The position numbers and the translations under genes were made by a program. 64,000 nt of DNA from an uncultured Bacteroidales bacterium (lineage in GTDB: Bacteria > Bacteroidota > Bacteroidia > Bacteroidales > P3): the NCBI GenBank assembly GCA_900314925.1, contig OMXC01000006.1, positions 186,001 to 250,000 of the forward strand, written 5' to 3'. Under the pieces are notes generated by a model, which made no database searches, was not told the DNA's origin, and saw only the letters and a program-made list of their open reading frames with translations. Shown here one piece after another: positions 1,123 through 62,372 of this stretch. Numbering within the stretch: the stretch's first letter is position 1; each line of letters opens with the position of its first letter.

Positions 1123-1271
1123 CACATTTTTTTTTATATATAACAACCTATTCTCTTTTTTTTGCATTTTTTCTACATTTCCGGCCGCCGTCCCACTGCC
1201 CTCCCCCACCCGCCCCGTCCCGCCACGAGGCGCCGCCGCACCGCCAACCGCCCCCTTCAGCCACCGTCCCC

Positions 1272-1392
1272 CTACGGAGCCCCTTCGGAGTCCCTTCGGC
1301 CGTTCTTCAGTAGTTCTTCAGTGCGGCACTGAAGAACTACTGAAGAACTACTGAAGAACGGCCGTACCGGGTCCGTAGAGGGTGCGAAGAGG
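1272..1392. repeat. 11-base-periodic inverted array 1
   Basis: Eleven consecutive 11-base units sit in one register over 121 bases. The left five begin CTWCRG (for example CTACGGAGCCC, then CTTCAGTAGTT). The right units read as the complement (TACTGAAGAAC twice, then GGCCGTACCGG and GTCCGTAGAGG). The centre near 1325 makes a near-perfect long hairpin bounded by CGGCCG at 1297 and 1359, and the outer CTACGGA/TCCGTAG pair extends it. It lies between two divergent genes. The inner units are the same as those of array 2 at 22.5 kb. Function unknown. Confidence 0.85.
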
Positions 1393-1508
1393 GGGTATGG
1401 CGGGAGAATATCAAAAAGAATGTTAAAAATACAATAAAAAATAAAAAGCGGAGTTAAAAGGAAGTCTGAGAAAGGACAAAAGGAGAGAAACTATAAAAGA
1501 AACACGAT

Positions 1509-13265: not shown

Positions 13266-13408
13266 CTTCGGACCCTCTTCGGACCCTCCTCGGCCCCCCT
13301 TCGGCCGCGATACAGGTTTTCAGCGAGTTATGGCCATTGAAAATTCGTAGAATGGCCGTACATCGGCCGAGGAAAGTCCGATGAAAGTCCGATGAAAGTC
13401 CGAGGGGA
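13266..13408. repeat. 11-base-periodic inverted array 4
   Basis: Thirteen 11-base units in one register over 143 bases, the longest array here. The left side begins with CTTCGGACCCT twice, then CCTCGG- and CTTCGG-type units. The right side ends with GTCCGATGAAA twice and GTCCGAGGGGA. The two arms pair imperfectly through the shared CGGAC/GTCCG cores, and the middle units (13310-13342) are degenerate. It lies between convergent genes, so it could also act in termination. Confidence 0.8.
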
Positions 13409-13418
13409 TTAAAATGAA

Positions 13419-13507
13419 AATGAAAAATGAGGAATGAGAAAGGAGAAATGAGGATTATGTTTTTTGAGCACTTCTCATTTCTCCTTTCTCATTTTTAATT
13501 TCTCATT
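13419..13507. repeat. Heptamer repeats as an inverted pair
   Basis: On the left are 7-base units of the AAATGAG type; on the right are units of the TTTCTCA type (13470-13507). The two blocks are roughly complementary and could form a hairpin behind both convergent genes. The right block reaches the stop codon of the caspase-fold gene. The same TTTCTCA unit is found inside that gene at 14034-14075. Confidence 0.75.
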
Positions 13508-13508
13508 T

Positions 13509-15305
13509 CTACCTGATGTGCAGGAGTTGCCATGACTCGGCGTATTTGCCGTCGACATAGCCGGAGATTTCCTGCCAGCGGTTCTGGAGGGCGGATTCCT
13601 TGTTGAGTTTGCGCTCTACGGCTTCGTAGATGTCCTGGTAGGTGTAGGTGTCGAAGTTGGAGGTGGAGGCGAGACTCTTGATTTCCTTGAGGAGGAAGTA
13701 GGTGAGGAAACCGTGGTGCTGCGCGTCGAAAGCGAAGGCTGTCTTGTCGGGAGCAGCGGCGAGGAGGACGATGGCGTCCGATGTCTTGCTGGCCTTGCGC
13801 TTGGTTTTCTTGGCTTTGGCGTCTTTGGCCACGGGGCGGTTGGCGCGGAGCATGGAAGCGCCGTTGCGCTGGTGGCCGTCGAAGGAGGCGTCGACGATGA
13901 CGGTGAGGCGGCTGACGGGGTAGACTTCGCGTTTGCCGCGTCCTTTGAGCATGGAGCAGAGGGAGTCGAGGGAGAGGCACTGCGCGGCGAAGCGGGCGTC
14001 GTCCTTGCGCGAGAGGGCTATGTCGTAGTCGGGTTTCTCATTTCTGATTTCTGATTTCTCCTTTCTCTTTTTCTTGCAGCAGGAGCGTTTGCCGCCGAGG
14101 GCTTTGATGCCGTCGATGTTGAGGTGGTTGGGGATGAGGTAGGTGTTGCCGGCGAAGTCTGTGTAGCCGTGACCGGCGTAGTAGACGAAGAGGTCGGCCT
14201 GGGGCTGCGTCTCCTCGCCCTGGTGCTTGGCGACGGCCTGCGAGAGGTCGGTGAGCCAGTGGATGCCGTCCTGCAGGATTTCGGCGCGCGAGGCGTTGTT
14301 GAGCACTTTGACCTGGCGCTCAGGGACGCCGAGAGCGCGCACGAAGTATTGGCGCAGTATCTCGCCGTCGTTGGAGGCGAAGGGCACGTCGGGGAGGAAG
14401 GTGTGGTCGTAGTCTTCGTTGGCTATGATGAGGACGTAGGCGTTGTCGTAGGGTGTGGTGCTCTGGGGTATGTTGAAGTCGACGTAATCGTCCTGGATTT
14501 TGTCGGCAATCATGAGGTCGATGGTTTCGCGGAAGGCGTCGTGGACGGTGAGCTCGATGGAAGAGCGGCGGTAGTAGGCGCCGGTGTCTGTGTAGGAGCG
14601 GGTGACGTAGGAGTAGTCGTTGACGGTGCGTGCGAGGTTGCGCACGTTGTTCTGGAGGAAGTGGCGCACGGACTGGGCGCGGATGTAGGCGAGCTGGCAG
14701 TTGTTGGTGATGCCGTTGGTGTCGACGGAGACGCGGAGCTGTTCGTTGTTGAAGGTGACGGGCATGTAGCGGAAGTTGCCGTAGGAGCCGTCGTAGGGGA
14801 TGGTGCGGGAGAGCTCTACGCCGTCGGTGGTGGAGAATATCTTGACGGAGACGCGCTTGGTGGGGCGGAAGATGTCGTCGAGGATGTCTTCGACGAAGGT
14901 CTTGGTGAGGTTGCAGATGGCGCGTACGGAGTTGGAGGAGTCGTAGTTGAAGACGCCGAGGGGGTAGTCGTCGGTGTAGCCTTCGAGGTGGCGGCAGTTG
15001 TAGGAGATGTCGAAGACGTAGTTGAGCTCGGGGGTGCCGTCCTGGGAAGTGCCGTCGACGAGGGCTGTGCGGATGGAGATGTAGGTCTCGTCATAGAGTT
15101 TCTGCTGGTTGGGGAGTGCTATGAGCATCTGCTCGGCGCGCCGCTGCATGGTGCGCTGGCGGTTGGCGATGTCCTTCTGGAGGTATTCGCGTATGGCGTC
15201 GCGATACTGGTTGTTGAGTTGCTGTTCGCCGGTCTGCGCGAAGGCGGATGACAACTGTAGGTTGAGGATTGAAACGAGTGCAGCAATGAATAGATACTTT
15301 TTCAT
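13509..15305 (-). CDS. Caspase-fold (C14) protein with Cys replaced by Ser
   Basis: 598 residues with a signal peptide ending SSAFAQ. The N-terminal half is helical and beta-rich with no domain I recognise. From about residue 290 the sequence is a C14 caspase-like domain: YVLIIANEDYDH, then FVYYAGHGYTDF with the catalytic His at about 379. The Cys position reads IVDASFDGH, so Ser (TCC codon at 13884-13886, residue 474) stands where the family has Cys in DAC. A translated heptamer repeat (residues about 411-424, Lys/Glu/Arg-rich) lies between the two sites. It is probably an inactive or altered protease homologue. It follows moxR2 by 7 bases in an apparent operon. Confidence 0.8.
   Translation of the reverse strand: MKKYLFIAALVSILNLQLSSAFAQTGEQQLNNQYRDAIREYLQKDIANRQRTMQRRAEQMLIALPNQQKLYDETYISIRTALVDGTSQDGTPELNYVFDISYNCRHLEGYTDDYPLGVFNYDSSNSVRAICNLTKTFVEDILDDIFRPTKRVSVKIFSTTDGVELSRTIPYDGSYGNFRYMPVTFNNEQLRVSVDTNGITNNCQLAYIRAQSVRHFLQNNVRNLARTVNDYSYVTRSYTDTGAYYRRSSIELTVHDAFRETIDLMIADKIQDDYVDFNIPQSTTPYDNAYVLIIANEDYDHTFLPDVPFASNDGEILRQYFVRALGVPERQVKVLNNASRAEILQDGIHWLTDLSQAVAKHQGEETQPQADLFVYYAGHGYTDFAGNTYLIPNHLNIDGIKALGGKRSCCKKKRKEKSEIRNEKPDYDIALSRKDDARFAAQCLSLDSLCSMLKGRGKREVYPVSRLTVIVDASFDGHQRNGASMLRANRPVAKDAKAKKTKRKASKTSDAIVLLAAAPDKTAFAFDAQHHGFLTYFLLKEIKSLASTSNFDTYTYQDIYEAVERKLNKESALQNRWQEISGYVDGKYAESWQLLHIR
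14034..14075. repeat. Heptamer repeat inside the caspase-fold gene
   Basis: Six 7-base units of the TTTCTCA/TTTCTGA/TTTCTCC type sit inside the coding sequence and keep the frame (42 bases, 14 codons). The encoded residues are Lys, Glu, Arg, Ser, Ile and Asn, unlike the flanking domain sequence. Confidence 0.75.
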
Positions 15306-22400: not shown

Positions 22401-22455
22401 AAACCCCAACTCAAAACTAAAAACTCAAAACTAAAACCTCAAAACCAAAACCTCA
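22401..22455. repeat. Heptamer repeat, AACTCAA/AACTAAA type
   Basis: Seven-base units alternate (AACTCAA, AACTAAA, ACCTCAA, AACCAAA) over about 50 bases just before array 2. This is the longest intergenic block of heptamers and the only one directly next to an 11-base array without a gene between. Confidence 0.75.
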
Positions 22456-22470
22456 CACCCCCCCTCCTCC

Positions 22471-22580
22471 CTACGGCCCCGGTACGGAGTCCCTACGGCC
22501 GTTCTTCAGTAGTTCTTCAGTAGTTCTTCAGTGCGGCACTGAAGAACTACTGAAGAACTACTGAAGAAATGCCGTACGCC
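22471..22580. repeat. 11-base-periodic inverted array 2
   Basis: Ten 11-base units in one register. The left six start CTACGG, GTACGG, CTACGG, then CTTCAG three times (CTTCAGTAGTT twice, CTTCAGTGCGG). The right four are the complement (CACTGAAGAAC, TACTGAAGAAC, TACTGAAGAAA, TGCCGTACGCC). The core is the same as that of array 1, but with three CTTCAG units on the left instead of two. This is direct evidence of unit-number change between copies. Confidence 0.85.
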
Positions 22581-22635
22581 GAAGGGGATGCGTCCGGGAA
22601 AAGCACTTTTTTTATTCTATTCCTAAAAAAAAGCG

Positions 22636-24929: not shown

Positions 24930-25834
24930 TGTTTGAGATATATAGCAGAGCGGGAAGGGTGGAACACATACCCGAAGAGACCTCCGTGACGGTGGGGGTC
25001 TTCGACGGCGTACACCTCGGGCACCAGCAGCTGCTGTCGCAGATGGACGGTGCCAGGCTGGTGGTCACGCTGACGGCGCACCCCTCCTTTGTGCTCGGCC
25101 GCCGCCAGAGCGAATACTGGCTCGACGACCCCGAGGAGCACCTGAGGCTGCTCTTCGAGGCTGGCGCCAAGTATGTGGCCGTGCTGCCCTTCACACAGGA
25201 GGTGGCGCAGATGACCGCCTGCGAGACGGCACGCCTGCTCTACGGCCGGCTGAATATGCGCAAGCTGCTGCTTGGCTACGACAGCCGCTTCGGCAGCAAG
25301 GACCACGACGACTTCGACAGCCTGCCGCAGCTGGCCGCCGGGCTGGGCTTCACGCTGCAGCGCGGCACGCCGTTCACCGTGGACGGCGAACCCATAAGCT
25401 CCAGCCGCATCAGGCAGACGCTGCTGGAGGGGCGCGTGGAGGACACCGCAGCGCTGCTGGGCCGCAACTACAGCCTTGACGGCACGGTGCAGCACGGACG
25501 CGGTGTGGGGCACACGCTGGGCTTCCCCACGGCCAACATATGCCTTTCAGGGACTCGCAAGATGCTGCCGGCACACGGGGTGTACGCCGTGTGCGTGTCG
25601 GGCGACGGCCTGCAGGCCAGAGGCATAGCCAACATGGGGGCGGCGCCGACATTCGGCATCGACAAGCCGCTGCTGGAGGTGCACCTGATAGACTTCGACG
25701 GCGACCTGTACGGGAGGCACACGACGGTGGAGTTCCTGCACAAGCTGCGCGACATCAGGCGCTTCGACAGCAGCGAGGAGCTGCAGAGGCAGATACAAAA
25801 AGACCTGGATGAGTTCAGGAGTTATGAGTTATGA
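24926..25834 (+). CDS. ribF: Riboflavin kinase / FAD synthetase
   Basis: 302 residues. The N-terminal adenylyltransferase domain has GVFDGVHLGHQQLL (the HxGH-type nucleotide site) and ISSSRIRQTLLEGR. The C-terminal kinase domain has GRGVGHTLGFPTANI and ARGIANMGAAPTFG. It makes FMN and then FAD from riboflavin. The C-terminal codons overlap a heptamer repeat (DEFRSYEL end). Confidence 0.95.
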   Translation: MMFEIYSRAGRVEHIPEETSVTVGVFDGVHLGHQQLLSQMDGARLVVTLTAHPSFVLGRRQSEYWLDDPEEHLRLLFEAGAKYVAVLPFTQEVAQMTACETARLLYGRLNMRKLLLGYDSRFGSKDHDDFDSLPQLAAGLGFTLQRGTPFTVDGEPISSSRIRQTLLEGRVEDTAALLGRNYSLDGTVQHGRGVGHTLGFPTANICLSGTRKMLPAHGVYAVCVSGDGLQARGIANMGAAPTFGIDKPLLEVHLIDFDGDLYGRHTTVEFLHKLRDIRRFDSSEELQRQIQKDLDEFRSYEL

Positions 25835-25845
25835 GTTTTGAGTTG
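25811..25845 (+). repeat. Heptamer repeat at the ribF-amidase junction
   Basis: Five units (GAGTTCA, GGAGTTA, TGAGTTA, TGAGTTT, TGAGTTG) cover the last codons of ribF and the 15-base gap to the next start. Confidence 0.8.
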
Positions 25846-33072: not shown

Positions 33073-33171
33073 TTTCCACGTCATTTCAACGATACTTCAA
33101 CGATACTTCAACGATATTTCAACGATAGACATCGTTGATGTATCGTTATACTTTCGTTGATGTATCGTTGT
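33073..33171. repeat. 11-base-periodic inverted array 6 (A/T-rich type)
   Basis: Nine 11-base units. The left side holds TTTCAACGATA, CTTCAACGATA twice and TTTCAACGATA again; the right side holds units of the (T)ATCGTTGATG and TATCGTTATAC type. The centre is near 33128. The grammar is the same CTTCRRnnnnn as in the GC-rich arrays, but the bases are different. It lies between two genes in the same direction. Confidence 0.8.
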
Positions 33172-39993: not shown

Positions 39994-40092
39994 CTACGGA
40001 GTCTCCTCGGCCCCCCTACGGGGTTTCTACGGCGTTCCACTGAAGAACGGCCGAAGGGACTCCGTAGGGGGGCCGAAGGGGCTCCGTAGAGA
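39994..40092. repeat. 11-base-periodic inverted array 3
   Basis: Nine 11-base units (a tenth may extend to 40103). The left side is CTACGGAGTCT, CCTCGGCCCCC, CTACGGGGTTT and CTACGGCGTTC. The right side starts with CACTGAAGAAC, identical to a unit of arrays 1 and 2, then alternates GGCCGAAGGGn and CTCCGTAGnnn. Left unit 1 pairs with the last right unit. It lies between two genes on the minus strand. Confidence 0.85.
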
Positions 40093-40112
40093 AGCCGCTG
40101 AAAGGCTGACAG

Positions 40113-46296: not shown

Positions 46297-46395
46297 TTTC
46301 GACGACAGTATTACGATACTTCGACGATACTTCAACGATGTACATCGTCGAAATATCGTTGAAGTATCGTTGAAGTATCGTTGAAATGCCGATTA
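46297..46395. repeat. 11-base-periodic inverted array 7 (A/T-rich type)
   Basis: Nine 11-base units in one register. The left side is TTTCGACGACA, GTATTACGATA, CTTCGACGATA and CTTCAACGATG. The right side is TACATCGTCGA, AATATCGTTGA and AGTATCGTTGA twice. The last unit (46385-46395) is degenerate. It uses the same unit types as array 6 and lies between lipoprotein A and leader RNA B. Confidence 0.8.
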
Positions 46396-46963: not shown

Positions 46964-49768
46964 ATGAAAAGAATTGTCCTGCTCTCAATCATCTTGATGC
47001 ACACGGCAGTGTCTTTTGGACAGTTGACTGCGCCTTCGCTCAACAGTCCCAACGACAATATCACCGGAGCCTACACGCGGCAATACATGTCGTGGGGCCG
47101 CATCTCCGCCGCCACCGGCTATACCCTGCAGGTTGACACCGCCGCCACCTTCGACTCGCCGCTGCTATACTCGGTGGAGCACACCAACACCTCGTCGAGC
47201 ACGCAAGGTCGTCATGTCAACGACTTGCGCTACGGCACACAGTATTACTGGCGTGTGCGGGCATACAATGCCACCGACACATCTGCATGGTCGGTGGTGC
47301 GGACCTTGACTACAACCGGCAAGGTGTTCCTGAACTACTCCAACACTCCGGCCGACAGCCTCACGGGAGCCTATACACGGCAGTTCTTCTGTTGGAACAA
47401 CTCGCGTGGCTCGATAGGCTACATACTGGAGCTCGACACGGTGGCCGACTTCTCGTCGCCGCACAAGCGCACCTTCAACAAGACCACAGCAGCCGACAAT
47501 ACAGACAACTACTTTTACTATGCCGTCAACGATATGCGCTACGGCACACGTTATTACTGGCGTGTTTGCGCACACAACAATGCTGATACTTCGGATTGGT
47601 CGGATACCCGTACTCTGCTGACTACCGACAAGGTGTTTTTCACAAACCTTTCGCCATCCGACAGCCTCACGGGTGCCTATACAAGGCAGTACTTCTACTG
47701 GAGCAACTCACGAGGCTCGATAGGCTACATACTGGAGCTCGACACTGTGGCCGATTTCTCGTCGCCCCACAAGCGCACATTTAATAAGACCACTGCAGCC
47801 GACAATACGGACGATGCCCACTACTATGCCGTCAACGATATGCGCTACGGCACGCGCTACTACTGGCGTGTTCGTGCTCGCAACGGCGTGGATACCTCGG
47901 GCTGGTCGGACACGCGTACGCTGCTGACTACCGACAAGGCGTTTTTCACAAATCTTTCGCCGTCAGACAGCCTCACGGGAGCCTATACAAGGCAGTACTT
48001 CTACTGGCGCAACTCACGCGGCTCAATAGGCTACATCCTGGAGCTTGATACGGTAGCCGACTTCTCGTCGCCCCACAAGCGCACCTTCAACAAGACCACT
48101 GCTGCCGACAACACGAACGATGCCTTCTCCTATGCCGTCGACGATATGCGCTACGGCACACGCTACTACTGGCGCGTCCGTGCCCGCAACAGCGTGGATA
48201 CATCCGGCTTGTCTGACACGCGCACGCTGACAACCACCTACAGTGCATCTCTCAACTCGCCTGCCGACAACTCCATAGGCCGGGCTGTCAGTGACCTGTA
48301 TCTGTACTGGAACAATTCACGTGGATCAACGAAATACATAATACAGATTGACACTTCGGCCACTTTCAGCTCATCGCTGTTGCAGACCCTGAGCAAGACT
48401 ACCGCTGCCGACAATACAGACAGCTACTTCTACAAGATAGTCGACGGGCTCCGCTACGGTACCACATACTGCTGGCGTGTATGTGCAATCAACAATGCCG
48501 ACACCTCGGAGTGGTCTGCCGTATGGCGTTTCACCACTACCTATAATATCACCACTGGTCCGGCGTTGACGATGCCGGTAAACGACTCGACCGGACTGAC
48601 TTATAACAATATAACACTCGTGTGGCAACCCATGGACAACGTGCAAGGCTATCGCTACGAGGTGAGTACCAGCAGTACTTTCGAAACGCTCGTAGCCGCG
48701 GGCAACACCTCGCTGACCTTCTCGGTGGTGACCACGGCATTGCCGTCGACCTCCTATTACTGGCGGGTGCAGGGCTATAACGCCCAAGGTAACACAGCAT
48801 GGTCGCCGGTGTGGCACTTCACCACCGACGACGTGACGCTGACAGCTCCAGAGCTCGCCACACCTGCCAACGGAAGCAGTCAGCCTGTGAATGTGGATTT
48901 GGCCTGGCACCCAGTCTTTGGCGCACTGACATACGATTTGCAGTTGTCGTTCGACAACAACTTCACCGGTGCCCTGAGCAGTTTCAACACTGCTGATACG
49001 CACTACACTGTCAACGGATTGCCTCAGAATATGACTTTCTATTGGCGAGCACGCAGTAACAACGGCAATACACAGAGCGAATGGTCGGAGGTCCGCAGTT
49101 TCGTTACTAACGGTTGCCAACCGGTGAGCGACACCTTGTACCATGAGATGTGTGAGGGGCAAGGCTATGATTTCTTTGGAACATCCTATACGGCTACAGG
49201 TAACTATAGCCATATGTTGACAACAGCTGCAGGATGCGACAGCACGGTGGTGCTGGCATTGACGGTATATCCAAGAGGTATGGACGGCTCGGTAACAGAC
49301 ACTGCCTGCGATAGCTACACGTGGAACGAACTCACTTTCACCCAAAGCGGCAACTATCCATTCTACACCACCACGGTGCACGGTTGCGACAGCATGACTA
49401 TATTATATCTTACAATATATAATTCTGTTACGGAAAACATCTATGACATAGCCACTGGAGTTTATGAATGGAATGGAGACCATTATTCAGCCTCCGGCGA
49501 CTACACTCAACACTTTTCTACCGTACATGGCTGCGACTCAACAGTGGTATTGCACTTAACCGTCACCGTCGGCTTAACCGATGTTGCGGCCGACAACATC
49601 CATATCTTCGTTCACGGTAACAACATCATAACCGAAGGCATCAAAGAGGAGTCGGTGAGAGTATTTGATATGGTGGGCCGCCCCGTAAGCAATCACAACC
49701 TGCCCAACGGAGTCTACATGGTTAAGGTTGGCACGCTGCCCGCCCGCAAGGTGGTGGTGATAAGGTAA
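46964..49768 (+). CDS. Fibronectin-III repeat surface protein with T9SS-like tail
   Basis: 934 residues from the ATG at 46964, chosen for its signal peptide (IVLLSIILMHTAVSFGQLTA). Seven to eight fibronectin type III-like repeats follow, marked by YGTRYYWRVRA motifs. Three consecutive units of 102 residues (about 47.32-48.23 kb) are nearly identical and look recently duplicated. Then come two or three 'GCDS' modules (TTAAGCDSTVVLALTV) and a C-terminal domain of about 60 residues (SVRVFDMVGRPVSNHNLPNG, VYMVKVG) like the type A sorting tail of the type IX secretion system. Likely a cell-surface adhesin or binding protein. It stands behind leader RNA B. Confidence 0.85.
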   Translation: MKRIVLLSIILMHTAVSFGQLTAPSLNSPNDNITGAYTRQYMSWGRISAATGYTLQVDTAATFDSPLLYSVEHTNTSSSTQGRHVNDLRYGTQYYWRVRAYNATDTSAWSVVRTLTTTGKVFLNYSNTPADSLTGAYTRQFFCWNNSRGSIGYILELDTVADFSSPHKRTFNKTTAADNTDNYFYYAVNDMRYGTRYYWRVCAHNNADTSDWSDTRTLLTTDKVFFTNLSPSDSLTGAYTRQYFYWSNSRGSIGYILELDTVADFSSPHKRTFNKTTAADNTDDAHYYAVNDMRYGTRYYWRVRARNGVDTSGWSDTRTLLTTDKAFFTNLSPSDSLTGAYTRQYFYWRNSRGSIGYILELDTVADFSSPHKRTFNKTTAADNTNDAFSYAVDDMRYGTRYYWRVRARNSVDTSGLSDTRTLTTTYSASLNSPADNSIGRAVSDLYLYWNNSRGSTKYIIQIDTSATFSSSLLQTLSKTTAADNTDSYFYKIVDGLRYGTTYCWRVCAINNADTSEWSAVWRFTTTYNITTGPALTMPVNDSTGLTYNNITLVWQPMDNVQGYRYEVSTSSTFETLVAAGNTSLTFSVVTTALPSTSYYWRVQGYNAQGNTAWSPVWHFTTDDVTLTAPELATPANGSSQPVNVDLAWHPVFGALTYDLQLSFDNNFTGALSSFNTADTHYTVNGLPQNMTFYWRARSNNGNTQSEWSEVRSFVTNGCQPVSDTLYHEMCEGQGYDFFGTSYTATGNYSHMLTTAAGCDSTVVLALTVYPRGMDGSVTDTACDSYTWNELTFTQSGNYPFYTTTVHGCDSMTILYLTIYNSVTENIYDIATGVYEWNGDHYSASGDYTQHFSTVHGCDSTVVLHLTVTVGLTDVAADNIHIFVHGNNIITEGIKEESVRVFDMVGRPVSNHNLPNGVYMVKVGTLPARKVVVIR

Positions 49769-59044: not shown

Positions 59045-59143
59045 CCTCGGAGCCGGAACGGCGTTAGTACGGTCATTCTACGGCACTTGTATCGCAGTTG
59101 GCCGAAGGAAGGCCGAGGAGGGTCCGAAGGGGGTCCGAAGGGG
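59045..59143. repeat. 11-base-periodic array 5
   Basis: Nine 11-base units in register. The left side is CCTCGGAGCCG, GAACGGCGTTA, GTACGGTCATT and CTACGGCACTT. One degenerate unit is in the centre, and the right side is GGCCGAAGGAA, GGCCGAGGAGG and GTCCGAAGGGG twice. The arms follow the same grammar, but pairing between them is weaker than in arrays 1-3. Between divergent genes. Confidence 0.75.
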
Positions 59144-59294
59144 CTATATGCAAAACCCACGTTGCCAGCCTGTTGGCAGAAAGCCCGACAGGAGGCTGTG
59201 CCGCATGGCTAAGAAGCAGAAAGACAAGCCATAACGGGAAAACGAACTTTTTTTGAGAAAAACAATCTTTTTTTGCCAGAATTGAAAAAAGTTG

Positions 59295-62289: not shown

Positions 62290-62372
62290 GCCCTGGTGGT
62301 GGAATGGTAGACACGGTAGACTCAAAATCTGCTGCTCGCAAGGGCGTGAGGGTTCAAGTCCCTCCCGGGGTA
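62290..62372 (+). tRNA. tRNA-Leu, anticodon CAA
   Basis: 83 nt. Acceptor GCCCTGG pairs with CCGGGGT (one G-T wobble at the end), the D-arm is GGAATGGTAGAC-like, the anticodon loop is CTCAAAA with anticodon CAA, a variable arm of class II size (CTGCTCGCAAGGGCGTG region) follows, and the T-arm is GAGGGTTCAAGTCCCTC. CCA is not encoded. Reads UUG leucine codons. Confidence 0.92.

Follow-up and report, generated by a model that had tools for sequence, protein, structure and literature searches.

An intergenic array family that keeps an 11-base period while its word changes, in an uncultured Bacteroidales bacterium and its relatives

Introduction

Dispersed intergenic palindromes of the REP/BIME type occur in many copies, and some are bound by gyrase in E. 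coli; in these respects they are a natural point of comparison for the arrays described here. No fixed DNA sequence is known to mark the borders of supercoil domains in enteric bacteria. Diffusible supercoils have been described as moving in 10 kb domains in enteric bacteria (PMC3420936). The sequence preference of E. coli gyrase is a 130-bp symmetric, degenerate pattern with arms of 10.75-bp periodicity, marked by GC phasing, and no association of gyrase sites with E. coli contact domains is reported (PMC6379681).

The DNA analysed here is a 64-kb stretch, referred to below as the window, which lies in contig C13 of the 2.42-Mb draft genome of a Bacteroidales bacterium (G000, the source genome). 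It contains seven arrays of 11-base tandem units between genes. In this manuscript, we use the term word for the sequence of such a unit, regardless of the number of units in an array.

Results

The seven arrays of the window

The sequence-only reading had listed seven non-coding loci with 11-base tandem units, and such units are present at all seven. Array 1 (1255..1393) consists of GC-rich frame units and an inverted CTTCAGTAGTT core (RNA fold z -8.5, plus strand), and occupies a divergent gap, with a gene on the minus strand that ends at 1010 on one side and a gene with a MoxR match (Pfam) at 1509 on the other. Its core (1302..1348) is a perfect inverted repeat with 23-base arms and a 1-base spacer, and forms part of a hairpin sequence, common to arrays 1 and 3, with 32 copies in the genome (reversed control, 0). 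Array 3 (22471..22584) likewise has frame units and an inverted CTTCAGTAGTT core (fold z -11.7), and lies in a divergent gap between genes for IMP dehydrogenase and a thioredoxin-like protein (Pfam). Arrays 4 (33085..33170; co-directional gap, fold z -8.3) and 6 (46297..46389; fold z -8.6) both use a CTTCAACGATA-type word in inverted arrangement, with mismatches in array 4; array 6 is flanked by a minus-strand gene whose prediction is weak and by a gene on the plus strand. Array 2 (13266..13405; convergent gap, fold z -6.4) has CTTCGGACCCT-type units inverted about a long non-repeat centre, and array 5 (39994..40097; co-directional gap, fold z -9.4) has inverted CTACGG/CTTCGG-type units, which were detected by motif chains and TRF and missed by the lag-11 test. 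Array 7 (59045..59145; divergent gap, fold z -1.75) is degenerate, with mostly right-arm CCGAAGGGGGT units.

Other parts of the earlier description need revision. Eight to thirteen units per array had been claimed, but exact CTWCRR/YYGWAG units number 10, 4, 9, 2, 8, 4 and 4 in arrays 1 to 7, respectively, and any units beyond these are degenerate. Nor is one register kept through the centre, since in array 1 the last left motif starts at 1316 and the first right motif at 1329, a step of 13. The inverted layout holds for six arrays (fold z -6.4 to -11.7), while array 7 is weakly inverted. The CTWCRR grammar is valid within the source genome, but relatives use other words, and it is thus local to that genome.

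With Rfam 15 at curated thresholds, the sole match in the window is a tRNA at 62290, with none at the arrays, and a blastn search with positions 1200-1420 (array 1 and its flanks) gave no plasmid or phage match. By MoxR protein, the nearest named relatives are Bacteroidales metagenome assemblies, several of them ruminant-derived. Among the five nearest (loci L058-L062), an 11-base array with another word precedes MoxR by approximately 0.5-0.7 kb in L060 and L061, and in L058 one was read by eye. Two further features of the window are a minus-strand gene for a caspase-domain (Peptidase_C14) protein adjoining array 2 (13509-15305), and three 306-base tandem repeats (47352-48229) within a gene with fibronectin-like domain matches.

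Period and anatomy across the source genome

The family extends beyond the window and is genome-wide. Three units of the proposed grammar chained at 11 bases occur at 191+181 places, as compared to 0 for the reversed motif, and the motif-chain caller gives 66 arrays in five G000 contigs (955 kb), again with 0 in the reversed-motif control. In a period scan of contig C13 (276 kb; 33-base windows with at least 24 identities), lag 11 yields 22 clusters, while lags 8, 9, 10, 12 and 13 yield 3, 2, 0, 2 and 1. The spike at period 11 is present in all five G000 contigs, and also in G028 and G012.

In many G000 arrays, GC-rich units (CTWCGGN5) on the outside frame a run of one word on the inside, which is often inverted about a fixed centre. 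In the commonest cores of G000, G028 and G012 the word and its complement across the centre span 19 bases, a figure that for G012 is fixed by the search pattern itself; CTTCAACGATA-word arrays have, by eye, a longer centre.

The same scan of C13 gives 39 clusters at lag 7. These belong to a second, separate family of 7-base tandem arrays, which are mostly in short co-directional gaps (45 of 53 in G000) and are found in the window at 13411-13510, 22408-22455, 25809-25844 and other places. They are common in G000 and G012, with none in 507 kb of G028.

Position between genes and spacing

Genes were taken from our own dicodon caller (738 genes), not a standard program. In the 955 kb, arrays are borne by 38 of 76 divergent gaps, 25 of 469 co-directional gaps and 8 of 62 convergent gaps. 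Because arrays lengthen the gaps that hold them, a fairer comparison is that of gaps of at least 200 bp, for which the corresponding counts are 38/62, 24/76 and 8/18; thus, long gaps of every class bear arrays, divergent ones most often. Promoter-like TAnnTTTG (-7) boxes are found in 79 of 106 array-to-start flanks in G000 and in 41 of 71 in G028 (raw counts), at a median of 101 bp and 150 bp beyond the array, respectively.

The arrays are evenly spaced, at approximately 10 kb, in the two most-sampled genomes, G000 and G028, each of which was sampled in part. For G000, 74 arrays give 69 intervals with a median of 11.0 kb and a coefficient of variation (CV) of 0.66. Only three intervals are shorter than 5 kb, compared to 17.8 expected under a null with contig and gap class retained; none of 2000 null draws was as low. 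Looser lag-11 thresholds give more arrays and a CV of 0.53, with 5 of 77 intervals below 5 kb (20.7 expected). G028, which has a different main word, shows a median of 9.0 kb and a CV of 0.41, with 1 of 45 intervals below 5 kb (11.0 expected). One array within a predicted gene of contig C22 was removed before the gap-matched counts; arrays within predicted genes were likewise left out of the looser spacing counts, the unlike-word and box analyses, and the junction comparison below.

One explanation for dispersed copies of this kind is a REP- or MITE-like mobile repeat, which would spread a species-specific word, prefer gaps with divergent promoters and avoid its other copies. Near-identical copies are indeed many: the G028 core has 132+134 matches, close to 133 sites as the core is near-palindromic, and the G012 core has 42 sites. 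However, avoidance also holds between neighbors with unlike words, of which 4 of 33 in G000 (the closest at 0.2 kb) and 0 of 18 in G028 lie within 5 kb (raw counts), compared to 1 of 42 and 1 of 27 for like words. The unlike-word exclusion, although weaker in G000 than that between like words, speaks against homologous recombination as the means by which close pairs are lost, and against an immunity tied to the word. In addition, the terminal inversion expected of a MITE is not universal, as direct-only arrays exist, and the sole RAYT-type gene found has a palindrome of another type on its flanks. This Y1_Tnp transposase gene (L017, contig C24 of G000, ~14.9-15.3 kb) is accompanied by repeated ACCCCTACGGGGT palindromes and has no 11-mer arrays beside it, and is apparently a separate REP system; we therefore do not assign the arrays to a RAYT-driven REP family.

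Period and word at conserved junctions

The sister species of G000 is G008 (93% median protein identity; 69% for G028). At six compared junctions where G000 has an array, 11-base units can be read by eye in G008 at all six; two of these were also scored in both species by the automatic caller. Also by eye, the number of units at the same junction differs between the two species by whole 11-mers, and at one junction the words are unrelated. Between G000 and G028, both conserved divergent junctions bear arrays in both species. Co-directional junctions show no sharing: of 43 conserved between G000 and G028, neither species has an array at 42 and G000 alone at one, and for G000 and G012 the counts are neither at 16 and G012 alone at one.

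Two junctions, dNK|nadC and Sua5|M64 peptidase, were selected as being divergent with arrays in both G000 and G028, and were read in the best 30 of 55 and the best 30 of 58 matching genomes, with gene identities confirmed by Pfam. At dNK|nadC, the divergent pair is present in 19 of 30 loci; the other 11, where no nadC was found, were set aside. An 11-base array (lag-11 score at least 23), with many different words, is present in 17 of the 19 species, or 15 of 17 without the two genomes on which the choice was based. Scores of at least 23 at lags 8, 9, 10, 12 and 13 are reached by 0, 0, 1, 1 and 1 of the 19, and at lag 11 by 3 of the 11 set-aside loci (1 of 6 for Sua5|M64). One of the two species that lack an 11-base array, G035 (L243), has a 7-base array in its place (lag-7 score 29).

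Sua5|M64 is more variable, with an array in 10 of 24 species (24 of 30 loci show the pair), or 7 of 21 without G000, G028 and G008, which had been seen beforehand. Of the 14 gaps without an array, 13 are 73-166 bp in length and one is 239 bp, and gaps with an array are 236-507 bp, which is the pattern of a block that is either present or absent and so favors the mobile repeat. The same is true of one G008 junction where, by eye, a newer array seems to lie next to one that has decayed. Against this are the unrelated words, and the arrays without inverted ends, that occupy the same junction in different species, and on balance we consider the mobile repeat unlikely, if well short of negligible. 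Compensation by an array at a neighboring junction is not supported, as only one of four genomes without the Sua5|M64 array has another within 5 kb, and in G002 and G023 none is present over 19.9 kb.

The whole-unit differences between G000 and G008 bear on another alternative, that the arrays are tolerated minisatellites, in which slippage by 11 bases would take up unused intergenic DNA and loss of SbcCD would let inverted arrays remain. SbcD is half of this hairpin nuclease. It is below the curated cut-off in 15 of 23 genus genomes searched (above it in eight), and those below include G000, G001, G002, G004, G008, G012 and G022, in all of which arrays are seen. Arrays also occupy long gaps (median 407 bp in G000 and 467 bp in G028), as such a filler would. 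On the other hand, G011 has SbcD together with inverted arrays and G016 has SbcD together with 11-base arrays, and some genomes are incomplete, so that the link between SbcD and arrays is loose. We know of no cause for a slippage step of exactly 11. The even spacing, the exclusion within 5 kb and the presence of arrays in nearly all species at dNK|nadC are likewise difficult to reconcile with tolerated filler, which we regard as decidedly unlikely. The earlier suggestion of a slippage-prone element thus survives for the change in unit number, but slippage alone leaves the even spacing unexplained.

Words at the two junctions include CTTCAGTAGTT, CTTCGATTGTT, ATTACGGTAGT, TAGTAGAACCC and TCAACGCCTGA, and some species have similar words. 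By many uncorrected tests, 30 such words are not random: TA steps are more frequent than expected (33 vs 23.7) and GC steps less so (5 vs 11.7), and a period of ~3.67 bases within the word is seen for GC and purine content (mid-ranks 0.32 and 0.34). Neither A nor T is phased at 11 beyond expectation. Some features of the words are those expected if each word were an operator, bound by its own sequence-specific polymerizing protein: a CTTCRRTNGTT-related word is common to G000, G001, G012, G016 and G028, and the 30 words are, by the same uncorrected tests, enriched in CTA/TAG, AAC/GTT and ACC/GGT and depleted in AAA (2 vs 13.5 expected). Several unrelated words coexist within one genome, however, and the close relatives G000 and G008 have unrelated words at the junction described above, which makes operators of this kind very improbable.

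Further samples bear on the range of the family. In 40-kb samples of G009, G018 and G021, no lag-11 array is found at a stricter threshold; G009 nonetheless has an array at dNK|nadC. In 80 loci from across the Bacteroidota (521 kb) there is no spike at lag 11, and of four clusters two are in near relatives, one is a run of N, and one is in L124 (UBA3843, a more distant member of the Bacteroidales), where tandem units near CGCACTTATCG have a period of 11 (2544-2603). In G048, from another family of the order, CTTCGATAAGG-type 11-base repeats occur on several contigs (e.g., C253:8866-8937), with 12 matches compared to 7 in the reversed control; similar arrays may therefore exist outside the genus.

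Hairpins

A strong hairpin is common in the arrays, but is not required. Of 31 arrays read at the two junctions, four of which are from set-aside loci, 13 have one, and 18 fall under our cut-off (two of these score at least 10). Period and place therefore recur more than the inverted layout. In G000, arm mismatches show no strand bias (83 G.T vs 81 A.C), and in G028 they do (110 vs 50), mainly from two positions (27:0 and 23:4), a bias that shared ancestry of the copies could also yield.

These data also bear on the possibility that the working part is a nucleic-acid hairpin, acting as a terminator, as a cruciform or as a stem in a transcribed RNA. Six of the seven window arrays fold far better than shuffles, G028 cores have a 5-base centre in all matches listed, and G.U pairing favors one G028 strand at the two positions noted. 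Yet most junction arrays do not have a strong hairpin, G000 shows no bias, and many mismatches pair on neither strand (281 in G000 and 161 in G028); a wobble bias, as a sign of selection at the RNA level, is absent in G000 and in G028 rests mainly on two positions. Finally, 38 of 71 array-bearing gaps are divergent and contain no gene end, which is not the position of an intrinsic terminator with its hairpin and U-run at the 3' end of a gene. We consider a hairpin function improbable, and a long RNA hairpin, as proposed in the sequence-only reading, does not hold as a general rule.

Discussion

Any explanation has to account jointly for the exact 11-base period, the free word, the position in gaps between genes, the even spacing of ~10 kb, and the optional inversion. 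At one compared junction the period is kept in most related species while the word changes, and the arrays therefore likely act by spacing rather than by sequence. Of the meanings first proposed, a protein that reads every helical turn fits best, in that period and position recur across species as the word changes, although its mechanism is inferred. Our preferred reading, to which we give somewhat less than an even chance, is that the arrays are sequence-encoded boundaries of supercoil domains, at which a wrapping or polymerizing protein would meet the same surface at each turn, with gyrase as the candidate.

The proposed mechanism can be outlined as follows. A gap between divergently transcribed genes would be left with negative supercoils. 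There, the phasing of the array would set the path that a wrapped complex takes, and this complex would in turn stop supercoils from entering the next domain. A protein contacting one helix face per turn over ~100 bases could explain both the 11-base period and the freedom of the word, and a supercoil-domain boundary could account for the even spacing and for the bias towards divergent genes. The choice of gyrase as a candidate comes from the preference of the E. coli enzyme, which is 130 bp in length, symmetric, degenerate and helically periodic. The genome encodes a GyrA with six C-terminal blade matches. On this reading, the period would be read by a protein, with gyrase as the candidate for that role, and supercoil domains of ~10 kb would be separated as a result. 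Among the proteins sought (gyrase A, SbcD and RAYT), none is established as an array-binding protein that co-occurs with the arrays.

Several observations weigh against boundaries of this kind. The 30 words show less GC phasing at 11 than their permutations do (mid-rank 0.665, +3.1 sd), with the same sign whether ties are counted against phasing or by mid-rank, which counts against simple bending. Predicted curvature is modestly above that of shuffles (mean z 0.06 to 1.04 at 11 bp/turn, depending on model and window), and on this basis, together with the low phasing, we reject curvature as the selected property. On the same side of the balance are the lack of sharing at co-directional junctions, the 40-kb samples with no strong array, the lack of compensation at Sua5|M64, and the report that E. 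coli gyrase sites have no association with contact domains (PMC6379681).

A more general formulation of the boundary reading, which we consider possible but rather doubtful, is a word-free helical code, in which any 11-base word held in register for ~100 bases, every ~10 kb at the borders of transcription units, would mark a domain boundary. Such an array might serve as a track for a wrapping or polymerizing machine, and evolution would then keep pitch and place and let the letters vary. If domain boundaries are what these arrays are, they would provide visible, evenly spaced candidate borders, and the question of supercoil domains could be tested border by border. In addition, they would be of a rare sort of DNA element, which conserves its period and position rather than its letters and is missed by searches based on sequence similarity.

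Comparison with known systems

REP/BIME elements differ from the arrays in that, to our knowledge, they have no 11-base tandem unit. The E. coli gyrase sites are ~130 bp, symmetric and degenerate with periodic arms (10.75 bp), and have intergenic examples in BIME-2 (PMC6379681). Of a long symmetric site with periodic arms, the arrays show a period of 11 and frequent symmetry, but 18 of the 31 at the two junctions are without a strong inverted arm. GC phasing, which marks the arms of the gyrase motif (PMC6379681), is in our 30 words below that of permutations, by the margin given above. Gyrase sites are furthermore not exact tandem words, and are not known to be evenly spaced.

Within the Bacteroidales, the BrickBuilt MITE of Porphyromonas gingivalis (PMC4596501) is likewise a minisatellite in a dispersed, always intergenic element. 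It differs in its 23-base unit, its single word, its 19 copies, and a leader and tail that carry terminal inverted repeats; with their 11-base unit, the arrays are not members of this family. Bacterial A/T periodicity of ~11 bp (PMC4132750) is similar in its near-11 period, for which its authors invoke the pitch of negatively supercoiled DNA. It is a weak genome-wide bias of AT tracts, mainly in coding DNA, whereas the arrays are exact tandem intergenic words depleted in AAA and without excess A/T phasing at 11, and so are not a case of it. TAACTGA heptamers of the Beggiatoaceae (PMC4679880) resemble the arrays as short tandem intergenic words with many sets per genome, but have a period of 7 and are direct repeats; the heptamers of G000 itself are the separate family described above.

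In the open-licence literature, no description of such an array family was found among the titles and abstracts listed. A kept period, a changing word and even spacing are absent from the features of the families compared, and on this basis we consider the array family new.
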